DNA of 64,000 bases from Streptomyces sp. R21 (GTDB lineage: Bacteria; Actinomycetota; Actinomycetes; Streptomycetales; Streptomycetaceae). The stretch lies in the NCBI RefSeq assembly GCF_041051975.1, contig NZ_CP163435.1:2046001-2110000 (forward strand), in the 5' to 3' direction. Below the pieces are notes generated by a model that worked only from the letters and a program-made list of their open reading frames with translations, was not told the DNA's origin and did not search any database. How positions within the stretch are numbered: position 1 is the stretch's first letter; each line of letters begins with the position of its first letter. A program made the translations under genes and the position numbers. This document shows, in pieces, positions 25,471-47,159 of the stretch.

Positions 25471-27915
25471 TCAGCTGATGCTCAGCTTGAAGATCTTGTC
25501 CGAACCGTCCGCCGCACCCCCGTTGTTGTCGCAGTTGGTCGTCGACAGCCAGAGCTGGTCGGCGCCGGGGACCTTGGTGACCGTGCGCAGGCGGCCGTAC
25601 GTGCCGACGTAGTACGCCGTCGGTGTGCCGACGTTCTCCGTGTCGCCGGTGATCGGGATGCGCCACAGGCGTTCGCCGCGCAGGGATGCCATATAGATGA
25701 CGTTGCGGACGATGGCGATGCCGCTGGGTGAGGCCTCGGAGACGTTCCAGGTCTTCTTGGGGTTGGTCATCCCGGCGACGCTGCAGGTGCCTTCGCAGGT
25801 CGGCCAGCCGTAGTTGGCGCCGGGCTTGATGAGGTTGAGTTCGTCCTTGGAGCTGTTGCCGAACTCGGCTTCCCACAGGCGGCCGTTGCGGTCGAAGGCG
25901 AGGCCCTGCGGGTTGCGGTGGCCGTAGCTGTAGACGTAGTTGCCGAACGGGTTGCCCGGGGCGGCCTTTCCGTCGGTGGTCATGCGAAGGATCTTGCCGT
26001 TGAGAGAGTTCTTGTCCTGGGCCAGATCGGGCGTCTGGGCCTCGCCGGTGGAGACGTACAGGTAGCCGTCGGGGCCGAAGGCGAGGCGCCCGCCGTTGTG
26101 GTAGCGGTTCTTCTTGATGCCCTGGAGGAGGACGGTGTAGCCGCTGAGGGAGGTGCCGTTGTAGGTCATGCGGACGACGCGGTTGCCCTCGGCGGCGGTG
26201 TGCATGAAGTAGACGTAGTGGTTCGTCGACCAGTTGGGGTCGACGGCCACGCCCAGCAGGCCGCCCTCGCCGTCGGTCGTGACGGCGTTGGGCACGGTTC
26301 CGACCTGCGTCTTCGTGCCGTCCTTGGCGACCTTCCACACGCGGAAGTCGTCCCGCTCGGTGACCAGGGCGGTCTGGCCGTCGGGCATCCAGTAGGTGCC
26401 CCACGGAATGGTCCAGCCGGAGGAGACGGTGCTGATGGACGACGGGACGCCACCGTCGGTGGAGCAGGTCTGCGTGGTGAAGGTGACCGTGTTGGTCTCC
26501 GGGGAGACGTTGCCGGCGGCGTCGCGCGCCACCACGTTCAGGGTGTACGGGCTGTTGCAGGCGAGGCCGGTCAGCGTGGTCGACGTGCCGGTGACGGACT
26601 TGTAGACGGTGGTGCCGCTGCGCACGTCGTAGCCGACGACCGCCTTGTCGTCCGTCGAGGCACCCCAGCTGAGGTCGGCGCTGGTGGCGGTGACGTTGGA
26701 GGCGGTCAGTGTGCCGGGCTTGGTGGGCGGGGTGGTGTCGGAGCTGGGCTTGGTCGTGCAGTCGACGGCGGGGCTGGCCGGTGAGGTGTTGCCGGACGCG
26801 TCCCGGGCGATGACGGTGAGGTTGTAGGTGGTGTTCGGCGTCAGACCGGTGAGGTTCTTCGAGGTCGCGTCTCCCGCGGCCTCGCCGATCTTGTTGCCGT
26901 GCTCGTAGAGGTCGTACGCCGTCACGCCGACGTTGTCCGTCGAGGCGCCCCATGCCAGGGTGAGCGTGTCCTCGCCGATGTCCGAGCAGCTGGGCTGGCC
27001 GGGACGGGTCGGCGCCTGGGTGTCGGCCGCCGCGCCGACGCTCAGTTTGTCGAGGTTGGGGCCGCCGGCCGCGGTCGTGGCGGTGGCACGGATCTTGTTG
27101 GAGCCCGCGGTGAGCGAGGCGTTGAGGGTCTTGGTAGCCCAGGTGTCCCAGTCGGTGGTGGCCGGGAAGGAGACGCCCGAGGCGACGACCGTGCCGTTCA
27201 CGGAGATGTCCATCGGGCGGTCCGTCGTGGTGCCGTTGGCGTACCGCAGGGCGAGCGAGGCGCTGCCCGCCGAGGCGGCGCTCACCGTGAACTCCACATA
27301 CGAACCGGTGATGTTGGTGTAGTCGACGAACCCGGTGCCCGTGTAACCGGTGTGGTTGGTGGCCACCGTGCCCTGGGAGATCGTGGCGTCCTCGGCCTGG
27401 TGGTCGGTGGCTGCCGCGGCGAGCTCGAAGTCGAGGTAGTCGGTGTTGGCGAGGCCGCCCGAACCCGTGGCGGTGAGGCGGATCTTGTTGCTGCCCGCGT
27501 TCACCGGGACGGTCAGCGTCGAGGTGGTCCAGGCGTCCCAGGTGCTGGTGGACGGGAACGAGTACCCGGCCTTCACCACCGTGCCGTTGACCGCGATGTC
27601 CGCCGGGCGGTCGGCGGTGGTGCCGTTCGCGTAGCGCAGGGCCACGGTGGCCGTTCCCGCGGACGCGGCGTTTACGGTGAACTCGACGTAACTGCCCGCC
27701 GCGTTGGGGGTGTTGAGGAAGCCGCTGCCGGAGTATCCGGCGTAGTTGCTGTCCACGGTGGAGCCGGACGTGTAGGCGGCGCTCTCCGCTTCATAGCGGG
27801 TGGGCGCCGCCGAGGCCGACTGCGGTACGACCTGGACGAGTCCGGCACACAGGAGCACGACCGCACCGATGGCGATCCTCCTCAGCCGGCCTCTGGATGG
27901 GGTGGTGCTACGCAT
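25471..27915 (-). CDS. Secreted PQQ-type sugar dehydrogenase with two CBM35 and two FN3 domains
   Basis: This 814-aa secreted protein has, in order, a Sec signal (about 1-36, ending SASAA), two CBM35 modules (about 38-165 and 168-295; start motifs YEAESAAYTSG and HQAEDATISQG), two fibronectin III domains (about 300-480) and a soluble glucose/sorbosone dehydrogenase-like propeller (about 495-814; GGLLGVAVDPNW, NHYVYFMHT, YHNGGRLAFGPDGYLYVSTGE, YSYGHRNPQGLAFD). Such propellers oxidise sugars with PQQ and are known as partners of polysaccharide oxidation. It is the last gene of the GH18-GH8 unit. The ATG at 27915 has GGAGG five bases upstream. PQQ genes lie 11 kb upstream on the same strand. Confidence 0.85.
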   Translation of the reverse strand: MRSTTPSRGRLRRIAIGAVVLLCAGLVQVVPQSASAAPTRYEAESAAYTSGSTVDSNYAGYSGSGFLNTPNAAGSYVEFTVNAASAGTATVALRYANGTTADRPADIAVNGTVVKAGYSFPSTSTWDAWTTSTLTVPVNAGSNKIRLTATGSGGLANTDYLDFELAAAATDHQAEDATISQGTVATNHTGYTGTGFVDYTNITGSYVEFTVSAASAGSASLALRYANGTTTDRPMDISVNGTVVASGVSFPATTDWDTWATKTLNASLTAGSNKIRATATTAAGGPNLDKLSVGAAADTQAPTRPGQPSCSDIGEDTLTLAWGASTDNVGVTAYDLYEHGNKIGEAAGDATSKNLTGLTPNTTYNLTVIARDASGNTSPASPAVDCTTKPSSDTTPPTKPGTLTASNVTATSADLSWGASTDDKAVVGYDVRSGTTVYKSVTGTSTTLTGLACNSPYTLNVVARDAAGNVSPETNTVTFTTQTCSTDGGVPSSISTVSSGWTIPWGTYWMPDGQTALVTERDDFRVWKVAKDGTKTQVGTVPNAVTTDGEGGLLGVAVDPNWSTNHYVYFMHTAAEGNRVVRMTYNGTSLSGYTVLLQGIKKNRYHNGGRLAFGPDGYLYVSTGEAQTPDLAQDKNSLNGKILRMTTDGKAAPGNPFGNYVYSYGHRNPQGLAFDRNGRLWEAEFGNSSKDELNLIKPGANYGWPTCEGTCSVAGMTNPKKTWNVSEASPSGIAIVRNVIYMASLRGERLWRIPITGDTENVGTPTAYYVGTYGRLRTVTKVPGADQLWLSTTNCDNNGGAADGSDKIFKLSIS

Positions 27916-27967
27916 CTGAACCTCCGTCAGATCCGAAGGAGAAGGGGGACACACGTGCAGTGGGACA

Positions 27968-29611
27968 TCAGGGCACCCAGTAGTTGCCGGACGCCACGAT
28001 CATCGACTGGAGCTGGACGCTGCCGCCGTAGTAGAGCGAGGAGTTGATCGCCGTGCCGGTGAGCTTGTTCCAGAGGGCGTCCAGCCAGACTTGCGAACCG
28101 GAGTCGGTCATGGCCGTGACGACGAAGGGCGCCGTGAACGCCATGTCGTGCCCGCTGTCGAACGCCGAGCCGTTCAGGTGGTAGCCGGTGACGATGCTGT
28201 CGGGGTTGCCGCCGGTCTTCGCCTTGATCCAGGAGTTGAGCTTGTGCGCCGAGGCGAGGGAGGCCGCGTCGCCGCTGGTGACGGCGTCGACGCCGATCCG
28301 CCAAGGGTCACGGCAGGCGTTCCAGCCGTAGTCGCCGTCGTTGGGGCTCTCCAGGACCTCGCCGCTCGCAGGCTTCGGGGTGCCGTTGGTGTTCACGACG
28401 AAGTCCGCCAACAGACCCGTGCCGGAGGCGTAGTTGGCCTGCTGCGAGGCGATCAGGTTCTGGTGAGCGGTGCGGATGGTGTCCCAGGCGGTGTCGCCGG
28501 TGGCGCGGCGGAAGGCCCGGAAGTGGTCGACCATCCAGTCGGAGGACCGCGTGATGTAGTAGTACTGATCGCCGGACGAGGACCAGTCGCCGAGCTTCAT
28601 CAGATGCGTGCTCGGGTTGACCTCGCTCGCCTTGATGGCGTTGATGTGCTGGGTCGCGAGGTCCTTGTAGTTGTACGTTCCCGCGCTCCCCCACTGCTTG
28701 TCGGCGAGCAGCAGCCCGTACGCCACGTCGAGGTCGCCGTCGGTCGCCGAGTCCGAGCCGTCGACGGACTTGCAGGAGGAGTCCTGCTCGGCAGCGAGCA
28801 GGTGCGAGTTGTGCACCGAGGGGTGCGCCAGCATGTACTTGACCATGCCGTCGAAGATCTTCTTCGCGTCGGGGTCGGCGCCCGCCATGAACGCGGTGAC
28901 GACCATGCCGTATCCCTGGCCCTCGGCGACGTAGGGGTGGTCGGCGTCGGGCGAGATGACCTCGTACCAGCCGTTGCCGCAGTTCTGCCGTACGAAGGCG
29001 GACTTCCAGGCGGTGTACTTGCTGACGACGGCCTGGTCGAGGGCCGTCTGACTGCCGGACGGCTTCAACGTGCCTGTGGTGTACGGGAATTGATGGCTGC
29101 CGAACGGGACGGCGGGCCCGCTCGTGCTGGGCGCACCGACGGTGGTCCTGTCGAGGTTGGGTCCGCCGTTGGCGGTGGTCGCGGTGGCGCGGACCTTGTT
29201 GGCGCCCGCGGCCAGCGAGACAGTGACCGACTTGGTGGCCCAGGTGTCCCAGTTGCCGGTCGGCGCGAAGGACACGTTCGAGGCGACGACCGTGCCGTTG
29301 ACGGAGATGTCCATCGGGCGGTCGGTCGTCGTGCCGTTGGCGTACCGCAGGTCGATCGCGGTACTGCCCGCCGAGGCGGCGTTCACCGTGAACTCCACAT
29401 ACGAACCGGCGATGTTGGTGTAGTCGACGAAGCCTGTGCCCGTGAAGCCGGTGTGGTTGGTGGCCACCGCACCCTGCGAGATCGTGGCGTCCTCGGCCTG
29501 GTAGTCGGTGGCCGCCGCTGCCGTCCCGGCCGCCGTCAGGCCGAGCAGGGGCAGCGCGAGGGCCAGGGCGGTACCCCAGGTCAGGGCGCGTCTGCGATGA
29601 GTCAGTTTCAT
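27968..29611 (-). CDS. Secreted GH8 glycosidase with N-terminal CBM35
   Basis: This 547-aa secreted endo-glycosidase has a signal peptide (about 1-34), a CBM35 module (about 35-160) and a GH8 (alpha/alpha)6 catalytic domain (about 165-547). E230 in YVAEGQGYGMV is the expected general acid and SATDGDLDVAYGLLLADKQWG (289-309; quoted in outline) is the GH8 signature with D291/D293. GH8 covers cellulases, licheninases, xylanases and chitosanases. The neighbours (GH18, and a shared operator with a GH75 chitosanase) make chitosan a reasonable guess. It starts 12 bp after the GH18 stop. Confidence 0.88.
   Translation of the reverse strand: MKLTHRRRALTWGTALALALPLLGLTAAGTAAAATDYQAEDATISQGAVATNHTGFTGTGFVDYTNIAGSYVEFTVNAASAGSTAIDLRYANGTTTDRPMDISVNGTVVASNVSFAPTGNWDTWATKSVTVSLAAGANKVRATATTANGGPNLDRTTVGAPSTSGPAVPFGSHQFPYTTGTLKPSGSQTALDQAVVSKYTAWKSAFVRQNCGNGWYEVISPDADHPYVAEGQGYGMVVTAFMAGADPDAKKIFDGMVKYMLAHPSVHNSHLLAAEQDSSCKSVDGSDSATDGDLDVAYGLLLADKQWGSAGTYNYKDLATQHINAIKASEVNPSTHLMKLGDWSSSGDQYYYITRSSDWMVDHFRAFRRATGDTAWDTIRTAHQNLIASQQANYASGTGLLADFVVNTNGTPKPASGEVLESPNDGDYGWNACRDPWRIGVDAVTSGDAASLASAHKLNSWIKAKTGGNPDSIVTGYHLNGSAFDSGHDMAFTAPFVVTAMTDSGSQVWLDALWNKLTGTAINSSLYYGGSVQLQSMIVASGNYWVP
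29149..29221 (+). repeat. 73-bp direct repeat in CBM35 coding region, copy A (GH8)
   Basis: By reading both stretches, 29149-29221 is identical to 30541-30613 over 73 bp. They encode the last strands of the CBM35 domain (region AGANKVRATATTANGGPNLD). Identity at wobble positions over this length points to recent duplication or gene conversion rather than selection on protein alone. Confidence 0.8.
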
Positions 29612-29623
29612 GATCGCCCTTTC

Positions 29624-31015
29624 TCAGCCCGTGTACTGGGCGAAGACTTTGAGGTAGTCGTACGGCTGCTGCGAGACGCCGCTGCACGCGTCGCCGTCGG
29701 AGCCGGAGCCGCAGGCCCGGTCTCGGTTGACGGCCCAGTAGGTGAGGCGTGCGATGTGGTGCTGTTGGGCGTAGACGAGCATGGTCTGGAAGTCGGAGAT
29801 GCGGACGAGCTCGCCGGAGTCGTCGGTCTTGCCGTTCATCGACGAGAGCCCGATGTGCGCGTACGCCGTCGTGTCGCTGTAGCCGTACGCGGACTTGACG
29901 CGCCCCTTCAGGCCTTCCATGGCCTGGGTGGTCAGCGTGCCCATGTTGGTGGTGCCGCCGCCGAAGTCGAACGGCATGATGCACCAGATGTCGTTGGCCA
30001 GACCGGAGTTGGCGCCACGGTTGATCATGTCGACGCCGGTGGAGTCGGGGCCGCTGGTCGTGGTGCCGAAGGTGATGACGGTCTTCAGGCCGGAGTTGTT
30101 GGCCTTCACGATCTTCAGCGCGTCGATCACACGCTGGCGGACGGTGGCGTTGCCCCACTCGGTGTTCTCGATGTCGATGTCGATGACCTTGAGGCCGTAG
30201 GCGTTGATGACCTTCTGGTAGGCGCCCGCGAGCGAAGAGGCACTGCTGCACTTCTCGCCGAGCTTCGCGCCGCTCCAGCCGCCGAAGGAGACGATCACGT
30301 CACCGCCGGCCGACCGGATCGAGTTGATCTTCGACTGGTCGTCGCCGCCGGTCAGCGGGCGCGAGCCGTCCCAGGCAGGGTTGCAGGAGCCGTCGGACAG
30401 GATGAAGGCGAGGGTGAACCACTTGACGCCGGTCGCCGACATCACGGAGGTCGGGCTCTGCGGGTTGCCCCAGCCGAAGTACTCGTACGGCGCGACCGCC
30501 AGGCCCGGGGTGCCGACGGGGGCGCTGCCGAGCGTCAGTCTGTCGAGGTTGGGTCCGCCGTTGGCGGTGGTCGCGGTGGCGCGGACCTTGTTGGCGCCCG
30601 CGGCCAGCGAGACGGTGACCGACCTGGTGGCCCAGGTGTCCCAGTTCGCGGTGGGCGCGAAGGACACGCTCGAGGCGACGACCGTGCCGTTCACGGAGAT
30701 GTTCATGGGGCGGTCGGCGGTCGTGCCGTTGGCGTAACGGAAGGTCAGGGTCGTCTGACCGGCAGCCGCCGCGTCCGCCGTGAACTCGACGTACGAGCCG
30801 GTGATGTTGGTGTAGTCGACGAAGCCCGTGCCCGTGAAGCCCGTGTGGTTGGTGGCCACCGCGCCCTGGGAGATGGTGGCGCTCTCGGCCTGGTAGTCGG
30901 TGGCCGCGGCCTCCGCGCGGGCCGATGGGGGCGAGGCGAACAGCAGGGAGAGCAGCAGCCCGAACAGGGCGGCGAGGACCACGCCGAGACGGCGTGGGGG
31001 TACGAGGGGGTGCAC
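29624..31015 (-). CDS. Secreted GH18 chitinase-like enzyme with N-terminal CBM35
   Basis: This 463-aa secreted protein has a signal peptide (about 1-37), a CBM35 module (38-165) and a GH18 TIM barrel (about 172-463). The catalytic signature is VIDIDIENTEW with D279, D281 and E283, matching the end of DxxDxDxE. FGGWSG earlier in the barrel is the conserved beta-3 motif (SxGG). It hydrolyses beta-1,4-GlcNAc polymers or related chains; the exact substrate is not known. It is the first gene of a three-gene unit and lies just downstream of a 19-bp palindrome at 31084. Confidence 0.87.
   Translation of the reverse strand: MHPLVPPRRLGVVLAALFGLLLSLLFASPPSARAEAAATDYQAESATISQGAVATNHTGFTGTGFVDYTNITGSYVEFTADAAAAGQTTLTFRYANGTTADRPMNISVNGTVVASSVSFAPTANWDTWATRSVTVSLAAGANKVRATATTANGGPNLDRLTLGSAPVGTPGLAVAPYEYFGWGNPQSPTSVMSATGVKWFTLAFILSDGSCNPAWDGSRPLTGGDDQSKINSIRSAGGDVIVSFGGWSGAKLGEKCSSASSLAGAYQKVINAYGLKVIDIDIENTEWGNATVRQRVIDALKIVKANNSGLKTVITFGTTTSGPDSTGVDMINRGANSGLANDIWCIMPFDFGGGTTNMGTLTTQAMEGLKGRVKSAYGYSDTTAYAHIGLSSMNGKTDDSGELVRISDFQTMLVYAQQHHIARLTYWAVNRDRACGSGSDGDACSGVSQQPYDYLKVFAQYTG
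30541..30613 (+). repeat. 73-bp direct repeat in CBM35 coding region, copy B (GH18)
   Basis: Exact partner of 29149-29221. Beyond it the two CBM35 coding regions remain very similar over about 350 bp. Confidence 0.8.
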
Positions 31016-31083: not shown

Positions 31084-31102
31084 GTTAGGAAGGGTTCCTA
31101 AC
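31084..31102. promoter_or_regulatory. 19-bp palindrome, probable CsnR-like (ROK) operator of the GH18 unit
   Basis: GTTAGGAAGGGTTCCTAAC has perfect 8-bp arms around GGG. It lies 69 bp upstream of the GH18 start. The only other match I found, GTAAGGAAAGTTTCCTAAC (42534), is upstream of the GH75 chitosanase. Chitosanase genes of Streptomyces are known to be repressed by the ROK protein CsnR at a palindrome of this type. Confidence 0.65.
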
Positions 31103-31172
31103 TTTTGGTGGGCACACGTCCCCGCCTGCGAGAGCGCGGGCGGGGACGTGCGGGGGATGTCGGTGGCGGGCC

Positions 31173-32900
31173 TCAACTCCGGTCGAGCGCGTCCACGTTG
31201 GGCGCGCCGTTCGCGGTCGTGGCCGTCACCCGGATCGTGTTCGCGCCCGCCTTGAGCGGCACCGTGAGCGTCGAGGCCGCCCAGGTGTCCCAGCTCCCCG
31301 TGCCGTTGAAGGCGCGGTTCGCGGAGACGACGGTGCCGTTCACGGTGACGTCCATCGGGCGGCCCACGGTGGACCCGTTGGCGTACCTGATGGCCACCGA
31401 GGCGTTGCGGGCGGCGGCCGAGTCCACGGTCCACTCGACGTACGCGCCCGCCGCGTTGGCCGTGTTCACGAAGCCGGTGCCCGTGAAGCCGGGGTGGTCG
31501 GTGTCGACGGTCGAGCCGGACGTGATGCCCGCCTGCTCCGCCTGGTAGCGCACGGTCCTGGTGCCGAGCGGGGCCACCCTGATCAGCCGGGCCTCGCCCG
31601 GCCGCAGGGTGGCGCTGTAGGTGTCGGCGACCGTGCCCTTGTCGGCCCCCGACCAGAGGTCCGTGACCTGACCGGAGCCGGTGAAGCCGACCTGGGACCA
31701 GTCCACGGTGGCCGTCGAGGAGCCCGTCGTACCGGTGTTGAAGAGCGCCACCACGTAGTCGCCGCTGTCCTCGCGCTTGCTCCAGACCTGGTTGACGCCG
31801 CTGGAGACGATGCGCTTCGCCGCGTATCCGTCCTGGTCGACGGCGATCAGCCGGTCGTTGGTGAGCATCGCCGCGTCGACCGGGTCGAGCTGGGTCAGGT
31901 CGGTACCGAGCAGCAGGGGCGCGCCGGCCATCGACCAGAGGGTGAACTGCGAGCGCCGCTGGTCGGCGGTGAGTCCGGCCTGGTCGCCGTTGCCGATCTC
32001 CAGCGAGTCCAGGTCGTTCCAGCCGCCGGGTCCCGCGTACTGCTGCCAGTTGGCGGCCGACGTGAAGCGGGTCGTGACGTGCGACCAGTCGGTGAGCGGA
32101 TAGCCGCTGCCGTTGGGGCCCGACCCGCAGTAGCACTCGACGTCGCCCTGGGTGCGCCAACTGTTCGCCAGGGAACGCCAGGTGGGGGCGTCGGCGATGG
32201 CGAGGTTGTTGGAGAGGGCGTAGTTGATCGGGCGGCCCGTGGCCCGCAGCGCCTTGTCCCAGGCCCGTACGTCGGGGATGTCCTGGCTGCCGACGCCGTC
32301 GATCTTGAGGTAGTCGACGCCCCACGAAGCGAACTGCCTGGCCCAGGAGTTGACGAATTCCTGGGCGCCCGGCTTCGTGTAGTCGATGTAGTACATGTTC
32401 TTGCAGTTGTAGTTCTTCTCCAGGGTCGAGGTGTCCGCGATGTCCGCCGCGTGGTACGACGTGCCCTCGATCGGGGTGTTCTTCAGGACGGCGTTCTTGG
32501 CGATGCCCGGGGTGACGTAGAAGCCGAACTTCAGGCCCTTGGAGTGGACGTAGTCCGCCAACGCCTTGATTCCGGAGGGGAATTTGGCGGAGTCGACGGT
32601 CCAGCGGCCGTAGGAGTCGACGACGAAGCCGTTCGAGTCGCACTTCTGGTAGAAGTCGTCGAGGTTGACGTACACGAAGCCGTGCCGGTCGAGGCCGCTG
32701 GACACCAGGGCGTCCGCCTGCGCCTTGATCTTGTCCTCGGTCGGCCAGCGCCGCACGAAGCTCCAGCTGCTCCAGCCCATCGCGGGCCGGATGGACTGAC
32801 CGTTGCCGGACGCGGCGGCGGGCGGGGCGGTCAGCAGCGGGATGGCTCCGGCGATCAACACGCCCGCGAGGGCGAGGAGTACGGCTCTGAGGTGTCTCAT
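31173..32900 (-). CDS. Secreted alpha-galactosidase (GH27) with C-terminal CBM35
   Basis: This 575-aa secreted enzyme has a signal peptide (about 1-31), a GH27 catalytic barrel (PAMGWSSWSF, YVNLDDFYQ, nucleophile Asp in YLKIDGVGS, acid Asp in GGWNDLDSLEIGN), a C-terminal beta domain and a CBM35 module (about 445-575). It would release terminal alpha-galactose from side chains of plant polysaccharides. The ATG at 32900 or GTG at 32903 could start it; GGAGG is seven bases from the GTG. It overlaps the GH29-like stop (GTGATG). It is the last gene of the pqq/pectin unit. Confidence 0.88.
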   Translation of the reverse strand: MRHLRAVLLALAGVLIAGAIPLLTAPPAAASGNGQSIRPAMGWSSWSFVRRWPTEDKIKAQADALVSSGLDRHGFVYVNLDDFYQKCDSNGFVVDSYGRWTVDSAKFPSGIKALADYVHSKGLKFGFYVTPGIAKNAVLKNTPIEGTSYHAADIADTSTLEKNYNCKNMYYIDYTKPGAQEFVNSWARQFASWGVDYLKIDGVGSQDIPDVRAWDKALRATGRPINYALSNNLAIADAPTWRSLANSWRTQGDVECYCGSGPNGSGYPLTDWSHVTTRFTSAANWQQYAGPGGWNDLDSLEIGNGDQAGLTADQRRSQFTLWSMAGAPLLLGTDLTQLDPVDAAMLTNDRLIAVDQDGYAAKRIVSSGVNQVWSKREDSGDYVVALFNTGTTGSSTATVDWSQVGFTGSGQVTDLWSGADKGTVADTYSATLRPGEARLIRVAPLGTRTVRYQAEQAGITSGSTVDTDHPGFTGTGFVNTANAAGAYVEWTVDSAAARNASVAIRYANGSTVGRPMDVTVNGTVVSANRAFNGTGSWDTWAASTLTVPLKAGANTIRVTATTANGAPNVDALDRS

Positions 32901-34714
32901 CACGGCGCCACCTCCGGAGCCGGTGTCGCGTACGACGTGCCGATCCACGCCTCGTCGATCCGCAGCCGCTTGTAGCGGGTGGTGTCGGTGGACGCCGCCC
33001 AGGTCGAGTCGACTTCGAGACGTACGTAGCGGGCGTTCGCCGCGGTGATGTCGATGCCCTTCATGCCGCGGGCACTGGGGAGCTGACCGGTCTTGACCGC
33101 ACTCCCCCAGTTGGATCCGTCGTTGCTGAGGAACACCTTGTAGTCCTTGATACGGGCGGACTGCTCGGTGTCGGAGCGGGCGTAGGCGACCGAGTCCTCA
33201 CGCTGGTTGAGGCCGATGTACTGCACTCGCTTCGAGCCGCCGAGGTCGAAGGTGAGCGTGACCGGCAGCGTCTTGTTGCTGTCCCAGTAGCTGAGGTAGC
33301 TGCCGTCCGCGGCGGCCGACGCGCCATGCCCGCTTGCCGACGCGCTCGCACTCATCGTGTACGAGGAGGCGGGCAGGATTCCCTGGCGTCCGGCCGTGGT
33401 CACCTTGAAGACGGTGTCGTACGGGTCCCAGCCGCCCAGCCCGTTCAGAGTGAGGACGCCGCCGGACTGGGACCACGAAATGGCCGCCCCTGTACGCAAG
33501 TTGGCCACGGACGTGATCCGGTAGCCGTTGTCGCGGATGCGCAGGGTGCTGGTGGACGGCGGGGTCAGGACATGGACGTACTGCCGGTCGGCGTCGGTCT
33601 TGCTGATCGTGGTGACCCCGTGGGCGCCGTCGTTCCAGAAGCCGGGCTTGAGGCCGCCGTACATGTAGCCGCCGCCCTCGACTCCGTGCAGGGACTCCCA
33701 GATGGGGCCGAGGTAGGAGTTCGCGAAGTTGTTGAAGGACTCCTGGTTGGCCGGGAACTTCCCGTTGACCTGGGCGGTTTCGGCCATCAGCGCCTTCACG
33801 GACGAGCCCGCGTTGGTGACGAGCCGGCCGAGGGTGAGCATGCGGTCGACGCTCGGGTTCGAGCCGTCGTACCACCAGGCGCCAGTGGACGGCAGTTTGA
33901 AGTCGGCCTCGGTGAGCCGGGGCCCGGCCGTGTAGACCGCTTGGGGGTAGTCGTACGACGGGGTCATTCCCGTCTTCTGCTCATTGCTGATCATGTCCAT
34001 GATCGGCGTGTCTTCGTTGTTGTTGCTGATCGTGTAGTTGGGTCGCTTCTGGTAGATCTGCGCGTAGAGGTCGTGGCTCTCCCAGTACGCGTTGTCGTTG
34101 TCGATCCAGAAGCCGCCGAGCGTCGGATAGCGGTCCATCACCTCGAAGAAGTTGTCGTACGAGAACCGGCCGAAGCCGTCGCGGGTGGTGAGGTCGACGT
34201 TCGTGCCCTCGTAGGCGGAGTACGCGGCGGAGTCCAGCCACTCGTGGCCGCCCTCGGCGTGCCACTGGGGGTCGTCGGTCATGTAGAGGATGACCTTCAG
34301 ACCCTTGGCGGAGGCCGCGGTGATGAGTTCGCCGAGGAAGTCGCGCTTGGTCGCGCAACTGCCGGGGATCGCTGAGGGCCAGGGGCGGGCGTAGCCGAGG
34401 CGGCTGTGGAAGGTGGCGAGAACGAGGTACTGGACGTGCAGTTTCTGGGCCTCCTGCACCCAGTAGTCGGGGGTCCAGCCGCCGTTGGTGACGTCGTTCT
34501 CCCAGGCGGAGCAGCTGGTGTGCTGGGGTGCGGTGCGCTCTCCCCAGTGCAGGAAGAGGCCGCCGGTCGAGGCGCGCAGGAAGTCCTGGCGCGGGTTCTG
34601 CAGGTCCGCGTGTGCGGGCGAGGGAAGCAGCAGCGCGCCGAGGAGGAGCGCCACCACCGCGATCAGGCGGGCGGTCGGTCGTCTGCCGGACAGTCGTCTG
34701 CCGGTTCTGGTCAT
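32900..34714 (-). CDS. Secreted GH29-like alpha-L-fucosidase-type enzyme with discoidin (CBM32-like) domain
   Basis: This 604-aa secreted protein has a signal peptide (about 1-36), a GH29-like barrel (GLFLHWGERTAP, the LVLATFHSRLGYARPW segment, GGFWIDNDNAYW with the presumptive catalytic Asp near 195), a beta region and an F5/8 type C domain (about 455-600). GH29 enzymes release alpha-L-fucose; divergence here is enough that another deoxy-sugar is possible. The upstream open extension is ignored: the ATG at 34714 has GGAGG seven bases away and overlaps the GH28 stop. Confidence 0.75.
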   Translation of the reverse strand: MTRTGRRLSGRRPTARLIAVVALLLGALLLPSPAHADLQNPRQDFLRASTGGLFLHWGERTAPQHTSCSAWENDVTNGGWTPDYWVQEAQKLHVQYLVLATFHSRLGYARPWPSAIPGSCATKRDFLGELITAASAKGLKVILYMTDDPQWHAEGGHEWLDSAAYSAYEGTNVDLTTRDGFGRFSYDNFFEVMDRYPTLGGFWIDNDNAYWESHDLYAQIYQKRPNYTISNNNEDTPIMDMISNEQKTGMTPSYDYPQAVYTAGPRLTEADFKLPSTGAWWYDGSNPSVDRMLTLGRLVTNAGSSVKALMAETAQVNGKFPANQESFNNFANSYLGPIWESLHGVEGGGYMYGGLKPGFWNDGAHGVTTISKTDADRQYVHVLTPPSTSTLRIRDNGYRITSVANLRTGAAISWSQSGGVLTLNGLGGWDPYDTVFKVTTAGRQGILPASSYTMSASASASGHGASAAADGSYLSYWDSNKTLPVTLTFDLGGSKRVQYIGLNQREDSVAYARSDTEQSARIKDYKVFLSNDGSNWGSAVKTGQLPSARGMKGIDITAANARYVRLEVDSTWAASTDTTRYKRLRIDEAWIGTSYATPAPEVAP

Positions 34715-36633
34715 GCCGGCACCTCCAGATAGTCGAGGTTGGGGCAGCCGTTCGCGGAGGTCGCCGTCGCGCGTACGGTGTTCGCGCCGGCCGTGAGCGG
34801 GACGGCGACGCCGATCGTGCGCCAGGTCGTCCAGTCGGGCGTCGGCGGGAAGGAGACGCCGGATGCCACGACCTGGCCATTGACCGTGATGTCCATCGGC
34901 CGGTCCGCGGTGGTGCCGTTGGCGTAGGCGATCGCGACGGTCTTCGTTCCCGCGCTCGCCGCGTTCACGTTCCACTCCACGTATGCGCCGGCCGCGTTGG
35001 CGGTGTTCACGAAGCCGGTGCCGGAGTAGCCCGCGTGGTCGGTGTCGACGGTGCTGCCCGTCGAGTACATGGCGCTCTCGGCCTCGTACCGCGTACCGGG
35101 CGGCGGTGTGGTGCCGCAGTCCTGGCTCGACCCCGACGCGGACAGCCGCAGGGCTCCGCCGGTCGTGTTGTGGCTGTCGGCGACGCAGTAGCCCGACACG
35201 GTCTGGAAGCCGATGTCGAAGGGGCTCGCGCTGCCCTTCTGCGCGGTGAACCGGGTGAACTTCACCGAGCTGCCCGCGCCCGCGATGACCGCCGGGCGGC
35301 CGTCGTTCGCCGCGAACCGCACCGAGCTGTCGGTGAAGGTGACGTGGTCGGCGTTGTGCAGGTACCAGCCGTACGCGGGCCGGGTGCCGATGCTGTTCGG
35401 GTTGTAGTTGGTGGGGTCGTTGCTCGGCACGGCGGTGGACATGGTGCCGTTGCCGCCGGGGACGGTGAGGTTGACGTTGGTGAAGGTGACGCCACTGATG
35501 TGGTTCGGGCTCGACTCGCCCCACAGGGTCGGGCTGAAGGAGGGGCTGGAGCCGGTGGCGGTGATGTCGTCGTAGGTGACGTTGCTGATGGAGCCGACGC
35601 CCGGGTTGTTGCCGCAGCGTTTGCGGGTGCCGATCTTCTGCATGATCGGCGAGTGGACGTCTTTCATCGTGATGTCGCGGTAGTGGACGTCGGAGATCTT
35701 GGCGCCGTCCATGGAGACCATGCCCAGCCCCGACTTGTCGGAGCCCTCGATCCTGATGTGCTCGAACCGGTAGTCCGTGAAGTCGCCGCAGGTCTCCGAG
35801 CCGAACATGAGCGCGTTGCAGCACACCGCCGAGAGGTACGAGTCACTCACCCGGCCGGGGCCGTTGGGCAGTTTGGCGCCCAGCGCGTAGTCGCTCTTGA
35901 AGACCAGTGCGTCGTCGTTGGCCTTGATGTTCGCGTTGGTGACGGTGACGTTGGTCGTGCTGATGATGTTCCAGCCGTCGCGGTCGGATGCGGTGTCGAT
36001 GCTCAGGTGGTCCGAAGTGACGTTCGAACAGCCGTTGATGAGGGCCGCGAAGTGGCCGCCACGGCGCAGGGTCAGGCCGTCGCCGATGCGCAGGCCGTTG
36101 CAGCGGGTCAGCGAGATGATCTTGTCGGCCTCGCCGGAGGACGGGTTCCCGGTGATCAGGTTGCCCTGGCCGTCGATGACGCCGCCGCCCACGAAGGCGA
36201 TGTTGGTCAGCCGGTCGCCGTAGATCATCGCGTTGTGGAAGTGGCTGTGCCCGTAGTCCTGGTACTGGTCGTAGGGGTTGGACTCGGGCGGGTCGTACGT
36301 GTCCGCGCTTGACCCCTGGAGCGTGGCGCCCGTGTCGACCTGGAGCGTCACGTTGCTCTTCATGTGCAGCGTGTTCTTGGACTTGTACGTCCCGGGTGAG
36401 GGGAGTTGGACGGTGCCGCCGCCGGCCGCGTTCGCTGCGTCGACCGCCTTCTGGACGGCGGGGGTGTCATTGGTGGAACCGTCGCCCTTGGCGCCGTAGT
36501 CGCGCACGTCGAAGACGGCCGCCACGCCCGCGGGGGTCTGGGTACGGGCGACGGCCGGGGGCTGGGACAGGCCCAGAACGACGAGGAATCCGAGAAGGGT
36601 CAGGGAGAGTGCTCTGCGTGCCGTGCGTCTCAT
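34711..36633 (-). CDS. Secreted GH28 polygalacturonase-like enzyme with C-terminal CBM35
   Basis: This 640-aa secreted beta-helix enzyme has a signal peptide (about 1-30), the pectate-lyase-like start FDVRDYGAKGDGSTNDTPAVQKAV, parallel beta-helix repeats, and GH28-type catalytic motifs (TASDRDGWNI, KANDDALVFKSDYALG). A CBM35 module fills about 515-640 after a TTPPPG linker. It probably hydrolyses galacturonan or rhamnogalacturonan. The gene lies 12 bp after the lyase-like gene and overlaps the GH29-like start by ATGA. Confidence 0.85.
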   Translation of the reverse strand: MRRTARRALSLTLLGFLVVLGLSQPPAVARTQTPAGVAAVFDVRDYGAKGDGSTNDTPAVQKAVDAANAAGGGTVQLPSPGTYKSKNTLHMKSNVTLQVDTGATLQGSSADTYDPPESNPYDQYQDYGHSHFHNAMIYGDRLTNIAFVGGGVIDGQGNLITGNPSSGEADKIISLTRCNGLRIGDGLTLRRGGHFAALINGCSNVTSDHLSIDTASDRDGWNIISTTNVTVTNANIKANDDALVFKSDYALGAKLPNGPGRVSDSYLSAVCCNALMFGSETCGDFTDYRFEHIRIEGSDKSGLGMVSMDGAKISDVHYRDITMKDVHSPIMQKIGTRKRCGNNPGVGSISNVTYDDITATGSSPSFSPTLWGESSPNHISGVTFTNVNLTVPGGNGTMSTAVPSNDPTNYNPNSIGTRPAYGWYLHNADHVTFTDSSVRFAANDGRPAVIAGAGSSVKFTRFTAQKGSASPFDIGFQTVSGYCVADSHNTTGGALRLSASGSSQDCGTTPPPGTRYEAESAMYSTGSTVDTDHAGYSGTGFVNTANAAGAYVEWNVNAASAGTKTVAIAYANGTTADRPMDITVNGQVVASGVSFPPTPDWTTWRTIGVAVPLTAGANTVRATATSANGCPNLDYLEVPA

Positions 36634-36645
36634 GTCGGCCTCGTC

Positions 36646-37467
36646 TCACACCAGTTGGTAGCCACGGAGGTTGGTGAGGAGCAGATAGCAGTTCTGCAGG
36701 GAGCCCGAGGTGTCGCCGAGGGAGCGGTAGATGCCCCACTTGGGCCGCACCCGGTCGTCGAGGAAGGTGTCCACGCCGGACTTCGACTTGTCGATCACGG
36801 TCGTGCCGCCGCTCTTGAGGATCCAGCGCACGGAACCCGACGTGCCGTCGCCGACCTTGATCTGGAAGTCGACGTCGGTCCATTTGTCGTGCAGCGGGTC
36901 CAGACTGGTGCGGCCGATCAGGGTGTCGGTGAGGGCGAGCTTCAACTCGATGGTCTGGGCGCCGTTCACGCGGCGCAGCGACTGGACGACGATCGGCGAA
37001 CTGCCGGTGCCCGGCTGCTTCATCTGCATGATGTGGGTGAAACTGGTGGTCGCCTTGAGCGAGCTGGGGATGTACATCGAGTACGTCACCCGCCAGGTCT
37101 GGCCCGGCAGCCACTTCAGGTAGTTAGAGCTGCTCGTGCGCAGGCCGGTGACCTCCTGGCGTTGCCGGTCGGTCATGGTGTCGCGGTCCACCGTGTGCAT
37201 GTTGAACCGCCAGTTGTCGCCCTCGGGGTAGATGTGCGGATGCCCGGCGGGGTGCGAGTCGGCGCGGTCGTCCTCGATCGTCTCGAAGGCGCCGAGCCCG
37301 TTGCCGCTCGCGGTCGGCGACCACTTCAGCTGCCAGCTCGCCGCGCTCGCGGGGCTCTGCAGCCCGGCGGCGACAGCGGCTGAGCCGAGGGCGGCTCCGA
37401 TCACCTTCCGGCGGGAGGGCTTTCCGTTCGGCCCGTGGATGTCGTACGGCTCGTGCGGTGCGGCCAT
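36646..37467 (-). CDS. Tat-exported concanavalin-fold polysaccharide lyase-like protein
   Basis: This 273-aa exported protein has a Tat leader (SRRKVIGAALGSAAVAAG; about 18-44). The mature part, about 230 residues, looks like a beta-jellyroll polysaccharide lyase: HPHIYPEGDNWRF, TYSMYIPSSLKATTSFTHIMQMKQ, KWGIYRSLGD near the end. The exact lyase family is uncertain, so the substrate is not assigned, but it sits between GH105 and GH28 in a pectin-related gene row. It starts 6 bp after the GH105 stop. Unlike its neighbours it has no CBM35. Confidence 0.6.
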   Translation of the reverse strand: MAAPHEPYDIHGPNGKPSRRKVIGAALGSAAVAAGLQSPASAASWQLKWSPTASGNGLGAFETIEDDRADSHPAGHPHIYPEGDNWRFNMHTVDRDTMTDRQRQEVTGLRTSSSNYLKWLPGQTWRVTYSMYIPSSLKATTSFTHIMQMKQPGTGSSPIVVQSLRRVNGAQTIELKLALTDTLIGRTSLDPLHDKWTDVDFQIKVGDGTSGSVRWILKSGGTTVIDKSKSGVDTFLDDRVRPKWGIYRSLGDTSGSLQNCYLLLTNLRGYQLV

Positions 37468-37473
37468 CTTCCT

Positions 37474-39027
37474 TCACCTCGACCGGAGTTGTTCGTTCAT
37501 GATCAGGAAGGCGCCGAGACCGTGGAAGTCGTTGGTCGCCCGGGTGCGGCCCACGTAGTAGGCGTAGTCGCCGACGTTGGTGCCGATGGAGATGTCGGTG
37601 AGGTTGGTCCGGCCGTCGGAACCGAGGGAGACCTTGGCGAGGACGCCCTGGTAGCCGCGCTGGGCGACGGTCGCGTAGTGCGCGTCCAGGTAGCCCTTCT
37701 GGGCCCCGCGCGAGAGGGCGTACGTGAACATGCTGGAGCACGACGTCTCGGTCCAGTTGTCGCTGCGGTCGCCCTTGTCCATGACCTGGAACCAGCGTCC
37801 GGTGGTCGGATCCTGGTAGTGCTCCAGGCCCGCGGCCAGCTTCTGGAGGATGGTCAGCAGGGCGGCCCGGCGCGGGTGCGAACTCGGGATCGCGTCAAGG
37901 ACGTTGACGATCGCCATGGAGTACCAGCCGACGGCCCGGCACCAGTGCTCGGGGGCCAGGCCCGTGCCGGCATCGGACCAGCTCGCGGTCCGCGACTCGT
38001 CGTAGGCGTGCTTCAACAGGCCGCCCGTCACCTGGAGATGACTGCCGTAGACGTAGAGCTGCTTGGCGGCCTCGTTGTTCGTGTACGCCGAGTCATTGAA
38101 CTCCTTGCCGTACTCGACGAGGAACGGGTTCACCATGTAGACGCCGTCCGCCCAGAGTTGATGGGCGCGGCTGTCGGAGTCGGCGTGCCAGAAGCCGCCG
38201 TCCGAGGTGCGCGGGTAGGTGTCGAGGCGGTCGCGGATCTTCTTGGCGGCGATGCGGTAGCGGTCCTGTCCGGTCTCGTGGTGCAGGATCGTCAGCAGCC
38301 GTCCGGCCTGCATGCTGTCCAGGTTGTTGAAGCTCTGGCCGATCGATCCGTCGCTCGCCACGAAGCGGTCGACATAGCTCTTGATGTACGAGAGATAGCG
38401 CGGCTCATGGGTGCGCTGGTATGTGAGGTACTGGCCGTAGAGATACAGGCCGACCGGGTACGACCAGCCGCCGATCGTGGTCGGTGAGTAGCGCGCCATC
38501 GTCGACTCGACCATCGACACCGACCAGTCCTCGGTGGCCGCAGGCTGCCCCACGGTGAGCGAGTCGAGGTTGGGTCCGCCGTTGGTGGTGACGGCGGTGG
38601 CCCGGACGGTGTTGGCGCCCTGCCGGAGCGCGGCATCGACGGTTCGCGTCTGCCAGCCGGTCCAGGAGCCGTTGCCCGCGAAGGAGAGGTGTTCTCCGAC
38701 CGGGACGCCGTTGACGGTGATGTCCATCGGGCGGTCGGTGGTGGTGCCGTTGGCGAACCGGAGGGCCAGGGGCTGGGTGCCCTGCTGGTCCGCGGTGACC
38801 GTGAACTCGACGTAGCTGCCGGGGGTGTTGTCGTAGTCGACGAAGCCGGTGCCGGTGAAGCCGGGGTGGTCCGCGGCGACCGTGCCGTGGCTGATCGTGG
38901 CGTTCTCGGCCTCGTACGAGGCGGTGGCGAGGTGAGGGGTGACCGCAGCAGTGGCGGCCGTGGGGACGGCGGTCAGGCTGCCGGCGGCGAGCGCGCCCGC
39001 CGTCAGCAGGACACGTAGACGTCTCAT
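37474..39027 (-). CDS. Secreted GH105 unsaturated uronyl hydrolase with N-terminal CBM35
   Basis: This 517-aa protein has a signal peptide (about 1-28), a CBM35 module (about 36-160) and a GH105 (alpha/alpha)6 domain (SFNNLDSMQAGR, LWADGVYMVNPFLVEYGKEF, EHWCRAVGWYSMAIVNVLD). GH105 enzymes remove the unsaturated uronic acid left by pectin or rhamnogalacturonan lyases. Secretion is notable because well-studied GH105 enzymes (YteR, YesR) act inside the cell. The ATG at 39027 has GGAGGA upstream and overlaps the pqqE stop (ATGA), so it is translationally coupled to PQQ biosynthesis. Confidence 0.87.
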   Translation of the reverse strand: MRRLRVLLTAGALAAGSLTAVPTAATAAVTPHLATASYEAENATISHGTVAADHPGFTGTGFVDYDNTPGSYVEFTVTADQQGTQPLALRFANGTTTDRPMDITVNGVPVGEHLSFAGNGSWTGWQTRTVDAALRQGANTVRATAVTTNGGPNLDSLTVGQPAATEDWSVSMVESTMARYSPTTIGGWSYPVGLYLYGQYLTYQRTHEPRYLSYIKSYVDRFVASDGSIGQSFNNLDSMQAGRLLTILHHETGQDRYRIAAKKIRDRLDTYPRTSDGGFWHADSDSRAHQLWADGVYMVNPFLVEYGKEFNDSAYTNNEAAKQLYVYGSHLQVTGGLLKHAYDESRTASWSDAGTGLAPEHWCRAVGWYSMAIVNVLDAIPSSHPRRAALLTILQKLAAGLEHYQDPTTGRWFQVMDKGDRSDNWTETSCSSMFTYALSRGAQKGYLDAHYATVAQRGYQGVLAKVSLGSDGRTNLTDISIGTNVGDYAYYVGRTRATNDFHGLGAFLIMNEQLRSR

Positions 39028-40130
39028 GTTTCTCCTCCGCGGTATTCGCGATAGGCGTAGGCAGGGGCGGGGCCGGGAGTGCTGGCCGGCGTGCCGGGCG
39101 CATCCACGAGCGCTCGGACCAGCGGGTGGTCGGGGGCGTGGCGGCAGGCCGGGTCGGGGCGGGTCGCGTCGCCGGTGAGCGCGTGCGCCTGGCAGCGGCA
39201 GCCGCCGAAGTCGGTGGTGCGCAGGGCGCAGGTGCGGCAGGGGTCGTGCATCCAGGCCTCGCCGCGGTAGGCGTTGAAGGCGCCCGAGGTGTGCCAGATC
39301 CAGGCCAGCGGGTGATCGCGTACGTTCGGTGCGTCGAGGCCGGGCAGGGAGGCCGCGGCCGGGCACGGCAGGACCGTGCCGTCCGGGGCGACCGTGAGAG
39401 AGACTGCGCCCCAGCCGCCCATGCACGGTTTCGCGGTGCCGTCGAGGTAGTCGGGGGCGACCCAGACCAACTCCAGCTCTCCGGCGAGGCGTTCACGCCA
39501 CCGGGCGAGTGAGGAGCGGGCCCGTTCGGTCTGGTCGCGGGTCGGGAGCAGGGCGGCGCGGTTGCGCAGCGCCCAGCCGTAGAACTGGGTGTTGGCGAGC
39601 TCGATGCGGTCGGCGCCCCAGGCGAGGGCGAGGACGATCAGGTCGTCGAGCGCGTCGATGTTGGCGCGGTGCAGCACGGCGTTCAGCCCGAGCGGGAGCC
39701 CCGCCTCGCGCACCAGCCGGGCGGCGCGCTCCTTCGCCCGGAACGAGCGGGCGCCCGCGATGAGTTCGGCGGCCGCCGGGTCGGCGTGCTGCACGGAGAG
39801 CTGGACGCTGCGCAGTCCTGCGTCGACGAGGCCGCCCAGCCGCCGTTCGTGCAGGCCGACGCCGCTGGTGACCAGCTGGGTGTAGAGGCCGGCCGAGTCG
39901 GCGGCCGTGACGATGTCGGCGAGGTCACGTCTGAGAAGCGGCTCGCCGCCGGAGACATGGGTCTGCACGACGCCCAGGTCAGCGGCCTGACGGAGAACGT
40001 CGACCCATTGTTCAGTGTTCAACTCTTCTGACCGACCGACCAGTTCGACGGGGTTGGAGCAGTACGCGCAGCGCAGCGGACAGCCGTGGGTGAGTTCGGC
40101 GAGCAGTGCCCAGGGAGGATCGACGTTCAC
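39024..40130 (-). CDS. pqqE: PqqE, radical SAM enzyme of PQQ biosynthesis
   Basis: PqqE links the conserved Glu and Tyr side chains of the PqqA peptide, the first step to pyrroloquinoline quinone. The 368-aa protein has the radical SAM cluster motif CPLRCAYC (C17, C21, C24), HVSGGEPLLRRDL, and a SPASM-like C-terminal Cys set (DPCRTCAL, GGCRCQ, DPACRH) for auxiliary clusters. It uses a GTG start at 40130 that overlaps the pqqD stop. Its own stop overlaps the GH105 start. Confidence 0.95.
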   Translation of the reverse strand: MNVDPPWALLAELTHGCPLRCAYCSNPVELVGRSEELNTEQWVDVLRQAADLGVVQTHVSGGEPLLRRDLADIVTAADSAGLYTQLVTSGVGLHERRLGGLVDAGLRSVQLSVQHADPAAAELIAGARSFRAKERAARLVREAGLPLGLNAVLHRANIDALDDLIVLALAWGADRIELANTQFYGWALRNRAALLPTRDQTERARSSLARWRERLAGELELVWVAPDYLDGTAKPCMGGWGAVSLTVAPDGTVLPCPAAASLPGLDAPNVRDHPLAWIWHTSGAFNAYRGEAWMHDPCRTCALRTTDFGGCRCQAHALTGDATRPDPACRHAPDHPLVRALVDAPGTPASTPGPAPAYAYREYRGGET

Positions 40131-40381
40131 CGGAGCCAGCCCTCCTTTCGCAACGCCGTGAGAAACGCGGGGACTTCGCGGGCGACCGGAGCCCCGGGGA
40201 ATCGTTCACCCAGCTCCGTGACGATCTCGGGCACCTCGTGACGGCCGTCGCAGAGCCGGAGCACACTGCCCGCGTTGCCCCGCAGGACGACGACCCGCTC
40301 GGGCAGAAGCAGCAAGTCGGCGCCACGGACCCGGTCGTGACGGAGCATCACGGATCGGGCGAGGGCAGGCCGCCAGGTCAT
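40127..40381 (-). CDS. pqqD: PqqD, PqqA-binding chaperone
   Basis: This 84-aa protein presents the PqqA peptide to PqqE (an RRE-type peptide-binding fold). Family features are LARSVMLRHDRVRGADLLLLPERVVVL near the start and LRLCDGRHEVPEIVTELG in the middle. The start is the ATG at 40381, which overlaps the pqqC stop (ATGA); the frame is open further upstream, but that part belongs to the pqqC region. The gene order C-D-E is the usual one. Confidence 0.92.
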   Translation of the reverse strand: MTWRPALARSVMLRHDRVRGADLLLLPERVVVLRGNAGSVLRLCDGRHEVPEIVTELGERFPGAPVAREVPAFLTALRKEGWLR

Positions 40382-41121
40382 GACGCGCCCTGCCCCACCG
40401 CGCGCGGCGCACCTCGCTCCACCGCGTCCAGCAGGGACCAGAGCACGTCGCACTTGAAGGTGAGTGCCGCCACCGCTCGCTCCTGCTGCTCGCGGGTGCG
40501 GGCCCAGCTCCGTACGAGCGCGAGGGCTTCCTCGCTGTCGCGGCCTCCCTGCCCGATCCGGGTCCGGAAGTAGGCGAGCCCCTCGGCCTCGATCCACGGG
40601 TAGTGGTGTTCGAAGGCGGCGATGCGGGTGCGCATCAGGCCCGGCGCCGACAGCTCGGTCAGGGATGCGGCGACGGCGTCGAGCGCCGGGCGCAGGCGGC
40701 AGAAGTTGACGTAGCCCTCGACGGCGAGCCGCACCCCGGGCAGCACCCGGGAGGCGTCCCGCAGTTCGGCACGGCCGAGGCCGGCCGCCTCACCGAGCCG
40801 CAGCCAGCGTTCGATGCCACCCTCCCCCTCCCGCGTTCCGTCGTGGTCCCGGATGCGCCGCAACCAGGCCCTGCGCAGCGCGGGGTCGTCGAACTTGGCG
40901 AGGATCAGGGCGTCCTTGACGGGGATGTGGCGCTGGTAGTGGAAGCGGTTGGCGATCCAGCGGCGCAGCTCGCCGGGCGTCAACTCGCCCTGGTGCATAC
41001 GGATGTTGAAGGGATGTCGGTCGTGGTAGCGCTCCTCGGCGACGGCGCGCAGCCGCTCGGTGAACTCGTCGGTTCCCCAAGGGGCCGCGGTACCGCCGCC
41101 GTGCACGGATGTCACGGTCAC
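40378..41121 (-). CDS. pqqC: PqqC, final oxidase of PQQ biosynthesis
   Basis: PqqC closes the ring and performs the last oxidation to PQQ without a metal. The 247-aa protein matches the family in length and motifs (ERYHDRHPFNIRMHQGEL, WIANRFHYQRHIPVKDA, GGIERWLRLGEAAG, HHYPWIEAEGLAYFR, TFKCDVLWSLLDA). The GTG at 41121 starts it; two later GTGs are also possible because no clear ribosome-binding site stands out. It begins 18 bp after pqqA, leaving no room for pqqB. Confidence 0.93.
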   Translation of the reverse strand: MTVTSVHGGGTAAPWGTDEFTERLRAVAEERYHDRHPFNIRMHQGELTPGELRRWIANRFHYQRHIPVKDALILAKFDDPALRRAWLRRIRDHDGTREGEGGIERWLRLGEAAGLGRAELRDASRVLPGVRLAVEGYVNFCRLRPALDAVAASLTELSAPGLMRTRIAAFEHHYPWIEAEGLAYFRTRIGQGGRDSEEALALVRSWARTREQQERAVAALTFKCDVLWSLLDAVERGAPRAVGQGAS

Positions 41122-41139
41122 GGTTCGTGCCCGGAGGGG

Positions 41140-41283
41140 CTAGGTGCGGTCGCCGAGGGCGTAGGCGGTGACCTCCAGGGCGGTCTCGATGACGAGATAC
41201 CCCGGGGTCTCCCAGACCCTTTCCTCCGATGTTTCCCGAATGGGCCGTTCCATGTAGGGGGCCTCGGGGGTCTTTTCGTTCAT
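41140..41283 (-). CDS. pqqA: PqqA, PQQ precursor peptide
   Basis: This 47-aa peptide has the family hallmark E-x3-Y: EVTAY (E37, Y41) inside ETALEVTAYALGDRT. E37 and Y41 supply the PQQ carbon skeleton. The leader with VWETPGYLVIET resembles other PqqA sequences. The ATG at 41283 is chosen; an inner ATG at 41253 or an upstream one at 41352 is possible. It heads the minus-strand pqq/pectin unit. Confidence 0.85.
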   Translation of the reverse strand: MNEKTPEAPYMERPIRETSEERVWETPGYLVIETALEVTAYALGDRT

Positions 41284-41565
41284 GTGTGCGTACCCGCTTT
41301 CCTGAGGGGTGGGGGTTGAGAAGCCCAGGCAGGCGCCGGTGTTCACATGCATGCATCGAGTTCAGTGACACGTTCGATGCCGCGATACAGAGTCGCTGCA
41401 TGACGGGAGCCGGTCAATGGTCCGGACCGAATAAGGTCGGATCCATTTCTGGCCAACCTGTGAGGGTGCTGTGATTCCGTCGCCGAAAGCCATGCCAGGA
41501 ATGCATCACGGCCCGTGATCGTTGACGATGGGAGTACCACCCGACGACTGAAGGATCGAGAGCTC

Positions 41566-47113: not shown

Positions 47114-47159
47114 GAGTGCGGGTTCCCTTGTCCGTTGCGGGTGTTGTCCGTTGCTGGCG

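Follow-up and report, generated by a model that had tools for sequence, protein, structure and literature searches.

Pyrroloquinoline quinone biosynthesis genes at the head of a conserved, probable Streptomyces pectin operon, with pqqB in trans and apparent repeated loss of the cassette

The stretch of DNA analysed here (the window) comprises 64,000 nt of the Streptomyces sp. R21 genome (G000:C1:2046001-2110000, within a 10-Mb Streptomyces chromosome), in which genes for biosynthesis of the cofactor pyrroloquinoline quinone (PQQ) run directly into genes for pectin degradation. From 41283 down to 31173 on the - strand, the order is pqqA-pqqC-pqqD-pqqE-GH105-lyase-like-GH28-GH29-like-GH27, with reading frames and junctions checked and no intergenic gap above 18 bp: pqqA and pqqC are separated by 18 bp, the GH105 and lyase-like genes by 6, and the lyase-like and GH28 genes by 12, while pqqC/pqqD, pqqE/GH105, and GH28/GH29-like overlap by ATGA, pqqD/pqqE by GTGA, and GH29-like/GH27 by GTGATG. 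An earlier note on this DNA had described such a one-directional run of pqqACDE and pectin genes, with gaps of at most 18 bp, an ATGA overlap joining pqqE to GH105, and further ATGA and GTGATG overlaps joining the last three genes; frames, junctions, and family models all bear this out.

The four PQQ genes are intact, and each product scores above its curated equivalog cut-off. PqqA (41140..41283, - strand; TIGR02107, 20.8 bits, cut-off 20) is a 47-aa precursor with the Glu/Tyr motif ...VIETALEVTAYALGDRT; its EVTAY core, containing the conserved Glu and Tyr, is kept across 24 operons of this type (described below), one of which has EVTGY. The pqqA frame stays open 5′ of the ATG at 41283 (41284-41352), with an in-frame ATG at 41352, and the sequence CATGTGAAC recurs in relatives within this leader, which may be part of the 5′ untranslated region or of a longer PqqA. 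PqqC, the pyrroloquinoline-quinone synthase (40378..41121, - strand; TIGR02111, 285.6 bits, cut-off 240), aligns with 1otw/1otv along its length. PqqD, the PqqA chaperone (40127..40381, - strand; TIGR03859, 70.6 bits, cut-off 46), is the sole PqqD-family match in the genome. PqqE, a radical SAM/SPASM protein (39024..40130, - strand; TIGR02109, 485.7 bits, cut-off 381), can be aligned over its length to 6c8v, with the radical-SAM and SPASM cysteines lining up.

The first of the pectin genes encodes a GH105 protein (37474..39027, - strand; PF07470, GH88/105, 299.8 bits) resembling the unsaturated rhamnogalacturonyl hydrolase YteR of Bacillus subtilis, its best match in the PDB (1nc5, E=4.6e-81). 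It has a signal-peptide-like N-terminus and an N-terminal CBM35 domain, and is the only GH88/105 match in the genome. The next product (36646..37467, - strand) is jelly-roll polysaccharide-lyase-like, with a weak match to PF14099 (31.0 bits, cut-off 29.9); its structure model (pLDDT 73) resembles lyases of the PL7/PL13/PL20 types in fold (TM about 0.5-0.6), supporting a jelly-roll, uronate-lyase-like fold and nothing more specific. There follow a rhamnogalacturonidase-like GH28 with a C-terminal CBM35 (34711..36633, - strand; PF00295, 76.8 bits; against the NF049898 rhamnogalacturonidase model, 286 bits, under its cut-off of 500); a fucosidase-related GH29-like protein with an F5/8C domain (32900..34714, - strand; PF01120, a weak 38.7 bits, and PF00754, 51.2 bits); and a GH27 of the alpha-galactosidase/beta-L-arabinopyranosidase type with a CBM35 (31173..32903, - strand; PF16499, melibiase, 138 bits; PDB 6f4c and 4nx0). 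Elsewhere in the window is a PL11 rhamnogalacturonan I (RG-I) lyase gene (55680..57560, - strand; PF21348, 816 bits; PF18370, 104 bits), a plausible source of the GH105 substrate. Judged by their families and predicted activities, the YteR-like GH105, the GH28, and the nearby PL11 lyase are enzymes for RG-I chain ends. CBM35 domains of the CsxA type bind uronic acids, both glucuronic acid and unsaturated galacturonic acid. RG-I would be the most likely target because of the YteR-like GH105, the PL11 RG-I lyase in the window, and the uronate-type CBM35 domains.

Further downstream on the same strand are a secreted CBM35 protein (29624..31015), a GH8 with CBM35 (27968..29611; PF01270, 84 bits), and a secreted PQQ-type sugar dehydrogenase, hereafter GSDH (25471..27954; PF07995, 235 bits), as the earlier note had placed it at the end of a neighboring unit. 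The first of these has a catalytic domain left unnamed by Pfam (CBM35/CBM6 matches only), which looks GH18-like by eye; in many loci, homologues of this protein are encoded between GH27 and GSDH. The GSDH has a six-bladed propeller, two CBM35, and two FN3 domains. The CBM35 domains of GH105, GH28, and GH27 are related to those of the dehydrogenase, which match that of an exo-beta-D-glucosaminidase (2vzp, E=3e-43). For the catalytic domain the best PDB match is 3das_A (E=8.7e-94), which PMC6881789 includes in its list of PQQ dehydrogenases as the aldose sugar dehydrogenase of S. coelicolor. The segments HNGGR, GHRNPQG, and GRLRTV can be aligned to 3das, and HNGGR and GHRNPQG to soluble glucose dehydrogenase (sGDH) as well; the conserved His, Arg-Asn, and C-terminal Arg positions of the propeller are present. 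The nearest structures are bacterial Asd/Adh proteins (3das, 2ism, and 3a9g), and the sequence matches in the PDB include no AA12 structure. A dehydrogenase unable to bind PQQ, which the earlier note gave as grounds for abandoning its proposal, is not what the sequence predicts: the family is one of structurally characterized PQQ binders. The genome has two further GSDH-family genes: one is about 16 kb ahead of the window (G000:C1:2029685-2030512, L116), and the other is the top scorer to the family model (G000:C1:3235507-3236409, L114).

The earlier note also gave it as known that dehydrogenases of this kind can feed electrons to oxidative polysaccharide enzymes. There is no local evidence for such a hand-over, since neither a lytic polysaccharide monooxygenase (LPMO) nor an AA8-type cytochrome is encoded in the operon or among the window genes scanned, and the nearest of the genome's four LPMO genes is about 500 kb away; electron transfer to LPMOs was therefore dropped as a component of the local system.

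A probable promoter region upstream of pqqA (41389..41429, - strand) has the form CGGTCCGGACCA-TTGACC-17 nt-GACTCT, with the palindrome GGTCCGGACC adjoining the -35-like box. Of 44 loci examined, both with and without pqq genes (see below), 41 have the CATTGACC box upstream, most of them with the palindrome. An exact 18-mer of this motif occurs once in the genome; a regulon sharing it was considered and rejected, as matches with three mismatches are not above those of a control pattern. Between pqqE and GH105, where a promoter and terminator would by the terms of the earlier note have spoken against its proposal, there is no consensus promoter, and the - strand shows no terminator-like site anywhere inside the pqqA-GH27 run. 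After GH27 there is a strong hairpin (31113..31152, - strand; -44.1 kcal/mol for a 116-nt region, z=-6.0), a putative terminator likely to mark the end of the first transcription unit.

The layout is not confined to this strain. In a sample of 393 Streptomyces genomes, 88 with PqqE and together holding 103 pqqE loci, the pqqE-GH105 adjacency that the earlier note suggested seeking elsewhere is found at 24 of the 103 loci (GH105 under 1 kb downstream of pqqE and on its strand), a recurrence that excludes chance as its explanation; at 6 more, GH105 is 4-8 kb upstream of pqqE. GH105 is present in 36 of the 88 pqqE genomes vs. 31 of the 305 others (Fisher p=4e-10, uncorrected for relatedness). Of the 24 adjacent loci, 18 have pqqE and GH105 overlapping by exactly 4 bp, mostly with a Shine-Dalgarno-like GGAGG inside pqqE; in the remaining six, no exact 4-bp overlap was called by script. 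The conserved order is pqqA-(B)-C-D-E-GH105-PL-GH28-GH29-GH27-(GH18)-(GH8)-GSDH, some genes being absent in some species. A GSDH gene lies within 20 kb of 48 of the 51 strong GH105 genes of the window type, and of 64 of the 103 pqqE loci. An early-branching group has it within the run itself, immediately behind the lyase gene (at distances of -4, 28, and 48 bp); in Streptomyces sp. WAC 01529, 80 bp separate pqqE from its start. Outside the genus, pectin enzymes are found near pqq genes in Catelliglobosispora and Amycolatopsis saalfeldensis, and GSDH near pqq genes in several Pseudonocardiales. In four other Streptomyces loci (L038, L039, L041, and L050), GH105, GH29, and GSDH are upstream of pqqABCDE, not downstream, an arrangement that suggests that the same partners have been assembled repeatedly.

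These features point to a conserved Streptomyces pectin operon, probably for RG-I, whose promoter-proximal PQQ cassette would feed a secreted GSDH; on the sequence evidence, this is the likely interpretation. One promoter would drive pqqACDE together with the CBM35-bearing pectin enzymes, and PqqB from a distant gene of a different lineage (see below) would complete PQQ synthesis. The cofactor would then activate the secreted, CBM35-tagged, six-bladed GSDH encoded at the downstream end of the locus, and sugars freed at the pectin surface, its presumptive substrates, would be oxidized extracellularly at the expense of a presumptive electron acceptor. As far as genome organization goes, with order, overlap, promoter, and the GSDH-GH105 linkage all conserved, the view of the earlier note that cofactor supply is built into a polysaccharide-degradation program is well supported; pqqB, which lies in trans, is the part missing from the cluster.

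Several observations weigh against this interpretation. The sampled genomes are related, so that the counts are not independent. In the 20 kb around 39 of the 103 pqqE loci, none of the GSDH types searched for is present, and PQQ may therefore serve other enzymes there. PQQ binding by the window GSDH is judged from aligned motifs, and the two other GSDH-family genes of this genome could also use the cofactor. The lyase and GH29 family assignments are weak. With pqqB outside the operon, the cluster is incomplete. Finally, the GSDH gene here is in a second unit behind the strong hairpin: a shared transcript would need read-through, and a single pqq and GSDH transcript is thus doubtful in this genome.

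One alternative is that the pqq genes serve PQQ enzymes generally, such as the widespread S. coelicolor Adh-type, and that their position before the pectin genes is an inherited linkage. In its favor, GH105 is not directly downstream at 79 of the 103 pqqE loci of the genus, and most Streptomyces, whether or not they have pqq genes, carry a GSDH at the ~52% level. However, the pqqE/GH105 overlap and gene order are conserved across deep branches, the linked GSDH accompanies GH105 almost throughout, some pqq loci adjoin the same GSDH type without GH105, and GH105 and GSDH remain together after pqq loss (see below). General service to PQQ enzymes is accordingly considered unlikely.

Although the earlier note took the cluster as the cofactor supply, it missed that this is incomplete: pqqB is not in the window operon, and the genome's sole PqqB match, above cut-off, is at G000:C1:9269527-9270402 (L113:9525-10409), 7.2 Mb from the operon. 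This stand-alone gene is in a neighborhood consisting of a channel-like gene, pqqB, marR, and a glyoxalase gene, which recurs in other Streptomyces (L137-L156, L180-L196). The same division is found in 17 of the 24 pqqE-GH105 operons, which lack pqqB, and all 17 of these genomes carry pqqB elsewhere; other pqq loci nearly always hold it, about 1 kb before pqqE. The trans PqqB proteins mostly form one clade. It is distinct from the Streptomyces operon PqqB (~41% identity) and in the tree falls inside the PqqB proteins encoded in Pseudonocardiales and Nocardia operons. This orphan clade is represented in 14 of the 17 genomes with pqqB-less operons vs. 1 of the 7 whose operon includes pqqB (Fisher p=0.004, uncorrected for relatedness). 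Of the three pqqB-less-operon genomes without it, G128 and G193 each have a second complete operon, and G315 has a stand-alone pqqB that has diverged. For the main orphan type, the separate clade and low identity rule out that the operon pqqB was simply relocated; the G315 gene may be a diverged true relocation.

A second alternative is that the operons lacking pqqB make something other than PQQ, either the PqqC substrate or another crosslinked peptide product. The frequency of such operons and the distance between trans and operon PqqB are compatible with this, as are 18 genomes of the sample that have pqqB but no pqqE; in these, pqqB may therefore be a relic or have another role. Against it are the presence of pqqB elsewhere in every genome with a pqqB-less operon, the association of the orphan clade with those operons, its nesting among the Pseudonocardiales and Nocardia operon proteins, and the equivalog-level PqqC score. 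A different product thus seems improbable, and PQQ synthesis completed in trans remains the favored interpretation.

The pqq cassette itself is not always present. In 17 loci the pectin and GSDH genes occur without pqqACDE, many with deletion scars; 15 genomes with linked GH105 and GSDH have no pqqE anywhere, while others have it at a different locus only. These pqq-less loci mostly share with pqq-containing ones a divergent AKR/GH75 flank and the same promoter box. When the two kinds are aligned, they match up to or into pqqA, resuming at the pqqE end or the GH105 start, with breakpoints that differ among loci. Remnants include an in-frame pqqA-GH105 fusion (G011), a pqqA with a stop codon (G084), a pqqA whose Tyr is replaced by Cys, together with a fragment of pqqE (G275), and truncated pqqA genes (G068 and G183), and several loci retain the pqqE tail as the GH105 ribosome-binding site. 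At least eight changes of pqq state are placed on the tree, of which the starred branches alone force four, and all early branches are pqq-containing; G261, whose contig begins at GH105, was not scored. While the tree alone cannot separate gain from loss, the pqqA pieces, differing breakpoints, and retained pqqE tails make it highly improbable that the pqq-less loci are ancestral, with pqqACDE inserted several times before GH105.

Loss of the cassette has not released the dehydrogenase from constraint. The GSDH is under purifying selection in pqq-less loci (dN/dS 0.09-0.20 in pqq-less pairs vs. 0.08-0.24 in pqq-containing ones), and the propeller motifs are kept in nearly all of these proteins; the enzyme therefore seems to be still in use, most simply with PQQ obtained from outside. 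The pqq-less lineages are probably PQQ scavengers, taking up the cofactor from their surroundings. The cassette would on this evidence be detachable, several lineages having apparently deleted pqqACDE and kept the promoter, pectin genes, and constrained GSDH. The balance of the evidence tilts toward a cofactor module repeatedly lost by internal deletion, leaving closely related species as makers or scavengers at one locus, with the operon pqqB of most makers replaced by a PqqB from a different lineage that acts in trans.

Clusters of carbohydrate-active enzyme (CAZyme) genes are common. PQQ genes clustered with a dehydrogenase that needs the cofactor are also already known, for example at Mycobacterium smegmatis MSMEG_3726 (PMC3023750). 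That cassette resembles the window locus in having PQQ biosynthesis genes beside a PQQ-dependent enzyme; it differs from it in that the Streptomyces enzyme is a secreted, CBM35-tagged, aldose-type protein, the cassette overlaps into pectin hydrolases, and pqqB is in trans. The S. coelicolor enzyme (3DAS; PMC6881789) belongs to the same propeller family and is the best structural relative of the GSDH catalytic domain, to which the window enzyme adds its two CBM35 and two FN3 domains and linkage to pectin enzymes. The fungal AA12 pyranose dehydrogenase CcPDH (PMC6881789) is likewise a secreted PQQ sugar dehydrogenase with a carbohydrate-binding module, but its AA8 cytochrome b domain and its CBM1 are not seen in the window enzyme, so the electron route may differ. 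The YteR-type GH105 of B. subtilis RG-I use is the closest solved GH105 structure, and here too an RG-I lyase (the PL11 protein, ~17 kb away in the window) is encoded; the window GH105 differs in its signal-peptide-like N-terminus, its CBM35, and its position after pqqE. In the open-access literature, no report was found of a pqq cassette leading a pectin or CAZyme operon, of PqqB supplied in trans from a different lineage, or of a scarred cassette loss in which the enzyme is kept.

If correct, this interpretation links the making of PQQ, a redox cofactor that can diffuse, to the breakdown of one particular plant polymer, and suggests under what conditions, and to what end, soil Streptomyces would produce it. 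The scarred losses amount to a natural experiment on cofactor sharing, in which close loci with and without synthesis have the same dependent enzyme. Two predictions follow: that PQQ from neighbors can reconstitute the CBM35-tagged GSDH extracellularly, and that the orphan PqqB completes PQQ synthesis.

Two other features of the window may be mentioned. A divergent cellulase island adjoins the pqq/pectin locus at 45404-51817, with CBM2-GH6 and CBM2-GH5 genes on the - strand and CBM2-GH48 on the + strand. In addition, the palindrome TTAGGAA-NNN-TTCCTAA, of which none would be expected by chance in the window, is found at 31085-31101, before the CBM35/GH8/GSDH unit, and at 42535-42551, before a GH75 chitosanase gene; it is possibly the operator of a shared carbohydrate regulator.

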